Part shown: positions 12,469 through 14,751 of the stretch, one piece after another | Layout of the letters: each line of letters starts with the position of its first letter | How positions within the stretch are numbered: position 1 is the first letter of the stretch | Assembly (NCBI RefSeq): GCF_013283835.1 | Contig: NZ_CP054052.1 | Location: 682,001 to 746,000, forward strand | Reading direction: 5' to 3' | DNA: 64,000 bases | Origin: Poseidonibacter lekithochrous | Lineage (GTDB): Bacteria; Campylobacterota; Campylobacteria; Campylobacterales; Arcobacteraceae | Position numbers and translations under genes: made by a program | The notes under the pieces: model-generated | Told to the model about the DNA's origin: nothing | Database searches by the model: none | Seen by the model: only the letters and a program-made list of their open reading frames with translations

Positions 12469-12963
12469 ATGTTAGAGATTATTCAAAATACACCAATATG
12501 GGTATTTATTCTTTTTGTATTTTTAGTTTTTCTTGGACTTTTGCAAACAAAAGATAAAAAGTTATCTATAAATAAGATTCTTATTTTTCCTGCTATTATG
12601 CTTCTTTTATCATATTTAGGAGTAGTTAGTGCTTTTGGATTTGATATTCAAAGTAATATTTCTTATTTATTAGGTTTAGGTATTGGAGTTTATTTATCAT
12701 ATTTTTTTAAAATTCCTAGAAAAAGTACTTATGATTTAAAAGAAGGACTATTTTTTATAAAGGGTAGTTTTCTACCTTTTTATTTAATAATGAGTATTTT
12801 TCTTCTTAAGTATTATGTGGGTGTTGTAACAGCAAAAGAATTAGAATTTATACATGATTTATCATTTGTAGTATTGATTTCTTTATTTTATGGTTTATTC
12901 TCAGGAGTCTTTTTGGGAAGGTTATTAGTCTTATTAAAAATAAAAAAGGGAAAGGATAATTAA
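12469..12963 (+). CDS. Small membrane protein, DUF6622-like
   Basis: A 164-residue protein with four or five membrane segments and the opening NTPIWVFILFVFLVFLGLLQ, which resembles the DUF6622 family (function unknown). An AAGGA site precedes the ATG and the gene follows nudC by 16 bases. Its last codons form one arm of the downstream terminator. Confidence 0.7.
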   Translation: MLEIIQNTPIWVFILFVFLVFLGLLQTKDKKLSINKILIFPAIMLLLSYLGVVSAFGFDIQSNISYLLGLGIGVYLSYFFKIPRKSTYDLKEGLFFIKGSFLPFYLIMSIFLLKYYVGVVTAKELEFIHDLSFVVLISLFYGLFSGVFLGRLLVLLKIKKGKDN

Positions 12964-13052
12964 ATCCTTTCCCTTTTTTTATGATTTTAATTTTAGGAGA
13001 GTTTATAAAATCAATATTAATACATCAAACTAGTTCGCGCTAATTTAATTAT
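12938..13052 (-). ncRNA. Candidate small RNA, array unit A
   Basis: From a predicted start about 7 bases after the -10 box, the RNA would begin with a 10-bp hairpin (ATTAAATTAG with CTAGTTTGAT, loop CGCGAA), pass through an A/U-rich linker, present CUCUCCU (complement of 12995-13001), and end at the strong hairpin followed by T6. It is the best terminated of the four units. No open reading frame of note is present on this strand. No expression evidence is available. Confidence 0.5.
12942..12980. terminator. Strong bidirectional terminator
   Basis: GGGAAAGGAT (12948-12957) pairs with ATCCTTTCCC (12964-12973), with A6 before and T7 after, so it works in both directions. On the plus strand it ends the nudC-membrane-protein transcript; on the minus strand it would end small-RNA unit A. 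Confidence 0.85.
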
Positions 13053-13058
13053 GAAAAC

Positions 13059-13089
13059 AGTATAAATAAAAATAATGTGGTTTTAGTGT
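13059..13089 (-). promoter_or_regulatory. Promoter and upstream element of array unit A
   Basis: On the minus strand a TATACT box occupies 13064-13059. A 20-bp upstream element spans 13089-13070, carrying CAC and, ten bases nearer the box, ACA. The same layout, with identical distance, recurs in units B, C and D. Confidence 0.5.
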
Positions 13090-13108
13090 GTATAGATAAA
13101 AAATGGAT

Positions 13109-13157
13109 AATGTTACAACAAAATGGGGTTCATTGGCTATATGATTGTTGTAACATT
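13109..13157. repeat. Perfect 13-bp inverted repeat with 23-base loop
   Basis: AATGTTACAACAA (13109-13121) and TTGTTGTAACATT (13145-13157) are exact reverse complements. The element sits between units A and B and belongs to neither. On the plus strand a TATAGA box at 13091-13096 lies just before it and a hairpin with T6 (13187-13211) after it, so it could be the 5' stem of a separate plus-strand RNA. It could also be an operator. Confidence 0.5.
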
Positions 13158-13183
13158 TCCATCTCTTTAGAAATCATTAATCT

Positions 13184-13277
13184 GTTAAAGAAGGAAATCT
13201 TTGCCTTTTTTCAATCAAGGAGAAAAGAAAGCATTATTTATAATATTTAATAAGCTAGTTCGCATTCTAACTTACTA
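13184..13277 (-). ncRNA. Candidate small RNA, array unit B
   Basis: The predicted RNA has a 10-bp 5' hairpin (AGTAAGTTAG with CTAGCTTATT, including G-U pairs, loop AATGCGAA), then UUUUCUCCUU (complement of the AAGGAGAA at 13217-13224) and a final hairpin (13187-13194 with 13204-13211). Its anti-Shine-Dalgarno stretch is the shortest of the four, and the minus strand lacks a T-run after the last hairpin, so this unit may be decaying. Confidence 0.4.
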
Positions 13278-13283
13278 GTTATT

Positions 13284-13314
13284 ATTATAAATAAAAAAAA
13301 TGTAAAGATGGTGT
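13284..13314 (-). promoter_or_regulatory. Promoter and upstream element of array unit B
   Basis: TATAAT at 13289-13284 on the minus strand, with the 20-bp element at 13314-13295 containing CACCA and ACA at the shared spacing. Confidence 0.5.
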
Positions 13315-13346
13315 ATTGTCTTACTTTTTACGAATTTCTGCAAATG

Positions 13347-13457
13347 GGGAAAGGGAAGGAAGCACCACTTTCCCTTTCAAATTTAATTTAGGAGGAGTTT
13401 GAAGAAAGCAGAAATCGCAATACTTCACAATAAATTAACTCTCGCTAACTTATCTCT
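13347..13457 (-). ncRNA. Candidate small RNA, array unit C
   Basis: The predicted RNA starts with an 8-bp hairpin (ATAAGTTA with TAATTTAT, loop GCGAGAGT), then shows ACUCCUCCU (complement of 13390-13397, a full anti-Shine-Dalgarno core), and ends in a hairpin made by GAAAGGGAA (13349-13357) and TTCCCTTTC (13370-13378). The hairpin is followed by C-rich rather than T-rich sequence on this strand. The plus strand could be read as AGGAGGAG plus a TTG-started 23-codon frame, which I consider less likely. Confidence 0.5.
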
Positions 13458-13463
13458 GAAAAG

Positions 13464-13494
13464 ATTATAAAAGTAAAATGTGTCAAAATAGTGT
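13464..13494 (-). promoter_or_regulatory. Promoter and upstream element of array unit C
   Basis: TATAAT at 13469-13464 on the minus strand; the upstream element at 13494-13475 reads ACACTATTTT then GACACATTTT, a clear 10-base direct repeat. One-turn direct repeats are the usual target of OmpR-type response regulators. Confidence 0.55.
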
Positions 13495-13562
13495 TAAAAA
13501 ATATGATTTAAAAAGAATTTTAAAATTTATGAAAAGATAATATATTAATTGATTAGTTAAGT

Positions 13563-13688
13563 TGAAAGAAGAAGTAGAAAGTAGCACAAATACTTTCTCT
13601 TCTTTTATTACCAAGGAGGAGTATAAAGAAAACTATATGGGTCTATATGTCTTCAGTTCTAAACTGATATGCTGTTTAGCTAACTCTG
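13563..13688 (-). ncRNA. Candidate small RNA, array unit D
   Basis: The predicted RNA carries a 5' hairpin (CTAAAC with GTTTAG, plus AGTT with AACT across a 2-base bulge), then UUUUCUUUAUACUCCUCCUU (complement of 13614-13633) and a long hairpin at 13564-13606 (AGAAAGTA with TACTTTCT, AAAGAAGA with TCTTCTTT, one bulge). The anti-Shine-Dalgarno stretch is complementary to the leuL translation start region at 56811-56827. The unit begins 62 bases after the stop codon of the upstream nuclease-fold gene. Confidence 0.5.
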
Positions 13689-13694
13689 AGTAAC

Positions 13695-13725
13695 ATTATA
13701 TATTTTCAAAGTGTGTTAATGGTGG
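13695..13725 (-). promoter_or_regulatory. Promoter and upstream element of array unit D
   Basis: TATAAT at 13700-13695 on the minus strand and the 20-bp element at 13725-13706 (CCACCATTAA then CACACTTTGA), at the same distance as in the other units. Confidence 0.5.
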
Positions 13726-13749
13726 GTTATTTGATAAATATAAAAGAAA

Positions 13750-14751
13750 TTACAAAAATTCTAGTTCACATACCACTTGAGCATGATCACTTTTTAGTAA
13801 TGAACCATCTGGATTATCTTTTAAATGTCCATCCAAAATCTCATAATTACTTATTTGAGCAATTCTATCTTTGTTCTTTTTATTAAAATCATTTGAGATA
13901 AATATATAATCTAAAACATTGCCTTTTCCCGCAAAATGACTAGTAGCAGGTCTTTTTGGATCTTTAGCTTCTGGATGTGGATTATAGACTTTTTTATCAT
14001 GTTGATGATAAGCATCAACTAATGTGAATGTTTCTTTTCTATTTTTATCGTGATACTTATTGTTTGTAAGTGCTTCAATTGTTATTGAAAATTCTTTGTC
14101 ATTTAAATCACACATTAAAACAGAAGCTTTGTTTTTTTGTTTTTTAATATCAAAAAATAGTGATGATGCTTCACATAATCTTTGTTTTAATGCTTTTGAG
14201 TATTTATCTTTTAAAGCTTTATCTACTTGTTCTTTTTTCTGCTCTAATGTATGTGATTTATTAAATACATATTCAAATTCATTTAATCTATTTGATTTTA
14301 GATGACAGATATAAAAAGTTGTATCTATTCCATTTGGTAGAGTAATATTTGCTTTTATAGGAATTCTAGCAAATTTAAAAAAGCCTTCAAAGTAGTGTTT
14401 CTTTAGACTTGGAATATGTGCTTTTACTTCTTGGATATTTGTAATAGGATGCTTTGATGCAATTGCAACAGTAGTACTTACAAAAACTTTTTTATTTTCA
14501 TCTTTTGTTTTTGCAAAATCAACAGTTTGAAAAAACTCAAATCCTAATTCATTCATTAGTATTTTTAAAGCATCTCTTGAGAATACTTCTTGGAAACCAA
14601 TAATATCACAGTTCATTGATAATACTTGTTTTTTAATCCAAGCTTTTTTTTCTTCCCATTGTTCATTATTGAACTTCTCTTTTTTTGTGTACCATGAATA
14701 TGGCGGTTCTACAAACTGAAATAAATTAAATGTTCCTACTCTTATTTTCAT
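13750..14751 (-). CDS. Endonuclease/exonuclease/phosphatase-fold protein
   Basis: A 333-residue cytoplasmic protein of the EEP superfamily (DNase I-like fold), divalent-metal phosphodiesterases. Visible motifs: TFNL near residue 7, the metal ligand Glu55 in GFQEVF, a late MCDLND and the C-terminal KSDHAQVV with the catalytic His. There is no signal peptide. The substrate, nucleic acid or phosphoinositide-like, cannot be decided. It is divergent from a flavoprotein gene; the small-RNA array follows on the same strand. Confidence 0.82.
   Translation of the reverse strand: MKIRVGTFNLFQFVEPPYSWYTKKEKFNNEQWEEKKAWIKKQVLSMNCDIIGFQEVFSRDALKILMNELGFEFFQTVDFAKTKDENKKVFVSTTVAIASKHPITNIQEVKAHIPSLKKHYFEGFFKFARIPIKANITLPNGIDTTFYICHLKSNRLNEFEYVFNKSHTLEQKKEQVDKALKDKYSKALKQRLCEASSLFFDIKKQKNKASVLMCDLNDKEFSITIEALTNNKYHDKNRKETFTLVDAYHQHDKKVYNPHPEAKDPKRPATSHFAGKGNVLDYIFISNDFNKKNKDRIAQISNYEILDGHLKDNPDGSLLKSDHAQVVCELEFL

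Follow-up and report, generated by a model that had tools for sequence, protein, structure and literature searches.

Most of what is known about control by small RNAs in Campylobacterota comes from Helicobacter pylori and Campylobacter jejuni. Elsewhere, the CcsR or cuckoo RNAs carry an anti-Shine-Dalgarno (anti-SD) motif. In Rhodobacter sphaeroides, RNase E releases CcsR1–4 from a single transcript, which is made from an RpoH promoter and includes the DUF1127 gene ccaF1 (PMC10253847, PMC8625941). The LhrC1–5 RNAs of Listeria monocytogenes form a multicopy family of ~111–114 nt, each with a 5′ stem-loop, a single-stranded stretch and a terminator; their redundant CU-rich motifs block a Shine-Dalgarno site, and their expression requires the response regulator LisR, with Hfq being dispensable (PMC4132741, PMC5880928). 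CJnc230/FlmE of C. jejuni, a 98-nt RNA in which two stem-loops flank a single-stranded CCUU anti-SD sequence, acts at the ribosome-binding site to repress flgM and Cj1387c; its gene is single-copy, lies downstream of flgE, has been reported from Campylobacter only and is transcribed in an RpoN- and RpoD-dependent manner (PMC11187230). Neisseria NgncR_162/163 are described as homologous sibling sRNAs with overlapping roles (PMC9973317). Stav 2019 screened Arcobacter sp. L and did not name the majority of its intergenic motifs (PMC6429828); our literature search found no Arcobacter sRNA of the kind described below.

We analysed a 64-kb stretch (hereafter, the window) of the closed 3.57-Mb genome of Poseidonibacter lekithochrous, in which an array of four minus-strand units, D, C, B and A in the direction of reading, occupies the whole gap separating two convergent genes. 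The units are very probably paralogous sRNA genes. An earlier reading made from the sequence only had picked out four units in this gene-free stretch, and that observation is confirmed. The features of the locus are as follows.

12469–12963, plus strand: gene for a DUF6622 membrane protein (PF20327), the convergent neighbour.
12940–13052, minus strand: unit A, predicted sRNA; 5′ hairpin 13049–13024, ACTCTCCT at 13002–12995, terminator 12979–12942.
13059–13092, minus strand: unit A promoter; repeat TACACACTAAAACCACAT and −10 box TATACT (13064–13059).
13098–13277, minus strand: unit B, predicted sRNA; 5′ hairpin 13277–13248, TTCTCCTT near 13223–13217, terminator 13157–13109, TTTTTT 13103–13098.
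13284–13316, minus strand: unit B promoter; repeat AATACACCATC/TTTACATTTTT and −10 box TATAAT (13289–13284).
13346–13457, minus strand: unit C, predicted sRNA; 5′ hairpin 13454–13429, ACTCCTCCT at 13398–13390, then a purine/pyrimidine hairpin.
13464–13498, minus strand: unit C promoter; repeat TTAACACTATT/TTGACACATTT and −10 box TATAAT (13469–13464).
13562–13688, minus strand: unit D, predicted sRNA; 5′ hairpin ~13685–13655, ACTCCTCCT at 13622–13614, purine/pyrimidine hairpin ~13604–13567, without a clear T-run.
13695–13732, minus strand: unit D promoter; direct repeat TAACCCACCAT/TAACACACTTT and −10 box TATAAT (13700–13695).
13750–14751, minus strand: the exo gene, encoding an Exo_endo_phos protein (PF03372); upstream neighbour and synteny anchor, past whose 3′ end the sRNA of relatives sits.

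An ACAY element begins exactly 14 nt ahead of every −10 box, confirming the identical spacing that had been noticed from the sequence. On both strands of the 64 kb, the motif ACAY-N10-TATAHT has four sites, and all four are the −10 boxes of the array. When the intergenic region of the array was resampled with a Markov model, none of 5,000 trials produced at least three such sites. Resamples of the whole window contain ~3 sites per 64 kb, and at least three on one strand within 800 bp arose in 2 of 400. This spacing is thus far from chance, as resampling rarely or never reproduces the cluster. A generic sigma-70 scan found no excess of promoter-like sites over shuffles. The ACAY element belongs to a direct repeat with an 11-bp period: lag-11 identity reaches 0.47 for the four promoters of the window versus 0.35 in shuffles (1 of 1,000 as high) and 0.53 in promoters of genus-mates (0 of 1,000 as high), and the value for all promoters pooled was matched by none of 1,000 shuffles. 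The genus-mate promoters carry four consecutive repeats, ATTAACAAATT, GTTTACAATCT, CTTTACAAACT and ATTAACACTAA. Response regulators of the OmpR/PhoB family typically bind direct repeats of 11-bp period adjoining the −10 box, and the repeats are most likely the expected site of a putative regulator of this type. A search of the literature for a precedent in a DccR direct repeat found none.

All four predicted RNAs have a 5′ hairpin followed by a CU stretch. The sequence-only reading had given the four units the same parts throughout, which holds for promoter, 5′ hairpin and CU stretch, but the purine/pyrimidine hairpin is confined to A, C and D. Unit A has what is, on paper, a textbook sRNA layout, with the loop CGCGAA in its 5′ hairpin, ACUCUCCU presented by the loop of the second hairpin, and a terminator that could act in both directions. 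The segment 12942–12979, an inverted repeat of 16 bp without mismatch that has a T-run on each strand, is a predicted two-way terminator for unit A and the DUF6622 gene. In unit B, the loop of the 5′ hairpin contains GCGAA, UUCUCCUU follows, and the RNA would extend to ~180 nt, ending in a long, strong stem of a kind other than purine/pyrimidine. This terminator and its TTTTTT had been overlooked when unit A was named as the only one with a clear T-run. Units C and D contain ACUCCUCCU and then the purine/pyrimidine hairpin, lacking a good T-run. A T-run lies ~45 nt beyond the unit C hairpin (13302–13295), where any hairpin is negligible (z 0.5), and for this reason the 3′ end of unit C is uncertain, possibly lying as far away as ~13295; that of D is likewise loosely placed. 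Of the two units suggested to represent read-through or decay, B and C, B is thus not obviously decayed. Folding z-scores are −7.1 for A, −7.6 for the B terminator, −3.1 for the B body, −2.6 for C and −1.7 for D, the last barely better than shuffles. The CU motif is predicted to be more exposed than the RNAs as a whole, with unpaired fractions of 0.98 in A, 0.92 in C, 0.67 in D and 0.56 in B, versus a whole-RNA average of 0.40–0.43.

Close relatives keep one copy at the corresponding place, which argues that the RNA family is real. Each of the seven genus-mates with the exo gene carries one unit past it, on the matching strand and with the parts in matching order (promoter, 5′ hairpin, CUCCU(CCU), terminator), and most of the seven have CUCC twice, ahead of and within the terminator hairpin. 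The assembly of the closest genus-mate (G005) is without the exo gene and hence outside this count. In the sister genus (g5, L025), the only unit carries ACTCCTCCTT, like unit D of the window, and ACTCCTCCT of units C and D is identical to the motif of that copy. In ~10 Aliarcobacter genomes, a unit with CUCUUCCU, CUCUCCUA or CUCCUUCC lies at the corresponding place and strand; an Aliarcobacter MAG is a relative of the window genome at ~66% protein identity. The site lacks a unit in the other family genomes inspected. In one Aliarcobacter genome (G032, L028), a transposase-like gene occupies the sRNA site downstream of the exo gene. In two Aliarcobacter-type genomes (L030 and L036), an apparent second unit stands behind the first; a hairpin loop of this unit holds CCUCCUAA, a separate terminator ends it, and the two units look like an independent two-member array. 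Unit number, a comparison that had been suggested at the outset, is thus one at this site in relatives, with an apparent two in L030 and L036, and the four-member array was seen only in P. lekithochrous among the genomes compared.

The suggested covariance search likewise found the unit in relatives. A model (R2) built from sister-genus and Aliarcobacter sequences only, with no window sequences, has unit C as its top match (E 0.0017) on both strands of the 64 kb, with D (0.015) second and A (0.019) third; its best match off the array in the window has an E of 0.66, and unit B was not recovered. Elsewhere, R2 places three genus copies next-best in their loci and clearly recovers a distant copy from another genus (L099). 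The helices are 90.6% paired versus 58–64% after sliding, and both-sided changes exceed those in shuffles. Model R1, run on 397 genomes of the class, gave no match outside Arcobacteraceae, and Rfam gave no family in the window at the gathering score and nothing relevant at permissive thresholds. Weak model matches were rejected as further copies, being mostly ordinary terminators behind genes, with L099, which has the full layout, as the exception. Also set aside was DNA similarity of the whole array within the genus, which returned short AT-rich matches only, some in coding sequence; such similarity is misleading because the RNA diverges fast, and synteny succeeded instead. Agreement of the promoter motif, the R2 ranking and synteny in relatives marks the unit as a conserved sRNA gene, and the idea of paralogous, separately promoted genes is borne out by shared promoters, conserved synteny and a model built without the window. 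We therefore describe a real sRNA family of Arcobacteraceae, apparently undescribed and multiplied in P. lekithochrous.

A search for TATAAT followed by CTCCTCC at sRNA distance revealed that Aliarcobacter conserves a second sRNA, which has other neighbouring genes. It consists of a GCGA-loop hairpin, UUUCUCCUCCUA and a strong terminator, with GTTAAC/GGTTAAT half-sites upstream, and its shortest forms are only ~75 nt. It is widespread in Aliarcobacter, where it sits upstream of other genes, and is also present in genus-mates, an additional genus and the window genome, as follows.

~1474507–1474385 of the window genome (L200, G000:C1), minus strand: second locus, of UCUCCUCCUA or CUCUCCUA type, half-sites upstream.
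L116–L131, L146, L147, L165–L177 and L185–L187: second-locus copies in relatives, with UCUCCUCCUA or CUCUCCUA.

The window genome therefore holds a fifth copy. A model of the second locus (R3) did not single out the array when run on the window. The distribution argues that the family may generally possess CUCC-bearing sRNAs, with the window array as the most multiplied case seen. In another genus, four loci (L139, L140, L145 and L148) have a large hairpin, AUAUAAUGAAACUUG...CAAGUUUCAUUAUAU, whose loop presents UUCUCCUCCUAA, between a gene for an RND-type transporter and one for an RNA-binding protein. On the reverse strand of L144, near 1078, an RNA candidate has two GCGAA-loop hairpins ahead of UUUCUCCUCCUA. 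Loops with GCGA are also found in units A and B, in the genus copies and at the second locus.

What might the exposed CU stretch do? In the window, AGGA stands ahead of 20 of 58 ORFs, versus 1.6 expected, and AGGAG ahead of 6, so an exposed CUCC can cover ribosome-binding sites in use. Being accessible and complementary to the Shine-Dalgarno motifs of the genome, the CU motif plausibly blocks ribosome binding. Few targets would match CUCCUCC over its full length, since the complete AGGAGGA precedes ATG at 52 places in the genome versus 40 in a reversed control, barely above background. Many Aliarcobacter copies have CUCUUCCU as their motif, partly paired (unpaired 0.36–0.49), which weakens the anti-SD reading for those copies. 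Among the candidate targets inspected, a gene of cbb3-oxidase type (PF00115, L261; ccoN) would pair with unit C at 13 of 14 positions, with an energy of −19.7 kcal/mol, and three genus-mates have its AGGAGGAGATTGATG without change; because candidates were preselected for AGGAGGA, this gene is a lead and not a target list. Hfq was not detected in the window genome by a search in which positive controls succeeded.

Other explanations of the array differ in how well they fit these observations. In an AT-rich genome whose generic sigma-70 sites do not rise above shuffles, promoter-like sites and CU tracts could pile up fortuitously, but this is extremely improbable, being refuted by the R2 ranking, the four-of-four promoter motif sites, the resampling and the syntenic conservation. 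It is also very unlikely that the units are cis elements, attenuators, coding leaders of a neighbour or small ORFs on either strand. Plus-strand ORFs of 43–57 codons in the array region, and the placement of the second locus in Aliarcobacter, would suit such roles; nevertheless, the three genes left of the array lie on the strand opposite to its units, and no reading frame common to units or relatives was found, conservation having fallen instead on the hairpins and CUCC. The same two observations lend indirect support to the trans action that had been proposed for these RNAs.

Decay of part of the array is a doubtful alternative, in which only some units work (A, possibly B) and C and D are deteriorating duplicates without functional terminators. 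Missing T-runs and weak folding speak for it, but both units keep the promoter and an intact ACTCCTCCT, identical to the single sister-genus copy, and they match a model made from other genera better than any other sequence in the window does, as would be unexpected of decayed copies. Similarly improbable, in our view, is that the RNAs are real but bind a protein, acting through CUCC or the GCGAA loops as a sponge for an RNA-binding protein or the 30S subunit. Repetition of the CU motif within some genus units, before and inside the terminator hairpin, and recurrence of the GCGA(A) loop would be expected of a sponge. By contrast, the CU motif complements Shine-Dalgarno sequences in use, known RNAs of such layout target mRNAs (PMC4132741, PMC11187230), and the repeated GGA motifs that a CsrA-type sponge requires are not a shared feature of the units.

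We thus favor, as a likely explanation, a separately transcribed paralogous sRNA family with 11-bp-repeat promoters and a CU stretch that would block Shine-Dalgarno sites, anti-SD action being the most likely mechanism and itself probable. Transcription, the regulator, mRNA pairing and translational repression are steps we infer in the following form. Each unit would be transcribed from its own sigma-70-type −10 box, with an OmpR/PhoB-family response regulator binding the direct repeats ahead of each box. Each RNA would then expose CUCC or CUCCUCC between a 5′ and a 3′ hairpin, and pairing of this stretch with AGGA or AGGAG of target mRNAs could keep ribosomes off. Having several diverged copies with a shared promoter type could provide both a higher dose and a wider target range. 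A bolder and rather unlikely extension is that four tandem genes and one dispersed gene form a five-gene, Hfq-independent family of diverged anti-SD RNAs under one response regulator, and that this family would brake, in graded fashion, a common set of mRNAs with strong Shine-Dalgarno sequences, notably ccoN. If so, one signal would lower respiratory-chain synthesis, and expansion of the array would raise the dose. More broadly, an Arcobacteraceae family with a promoter signature and one multiplied lineage offers a tractable case for studying the evolution of copy number and divergence among sRNAs, and the means by which anti-SD RNAs become specific without Hfq, the usual helper.

Searches for sequence homology of the array to LhrC, FlmE or CcsR found none; hence, we liken the array to these systems in its proposed action and do not count it as a member of any. 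With CcsR, to which the array was originally compared, the window units share four homologous small RNAs in tandem and an anti-SD motif. They differ in having four −10 boxes of their own and an upstream PF03372 gene rather than DUF1127, and Rfam, at gathering and permissive thresholds, yielded no match to a described CcsR/cuckoo family model. NgncR_162/163, likened here by description rather than by sequence, are a pair versus four units. The claim that Campylobacterota have nothing like the array needs qualification, as FlmE shares with the window units both the phylum and a two-hairpin anti-SD build (PMC11187230). Nevertheless, FlmE is a single-copy gene in an unrelated place, downstream of flgE, whereas the window units lie downstream of an exo/endonuclease-family gene, without synteny. 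By analogy, FlmE is the closest counterpart within the phylum. LhrC resembles the window units in being a two-hairpin RNA of ~110 nt whose single-stranded parts hold CU-rich motifs, and the genus copies also carry the motif in the terminator loop. LhrC comprises five near-identical copies with UCCC in a Gram-positive bacterium, whereas the window units are diverged and carry CUCC(UCC); no Rfam match links the two, and R1 is confined to Arcobacteraceae among 397 class genomes. Where LhrC has LisR, the window units have 11-bp repeats before each −10 box and a putative OmpR-type regulator. Judged by such analogies, the multicopy arrangement has its nearest working counterpart in LhrC rather than in CcsR.
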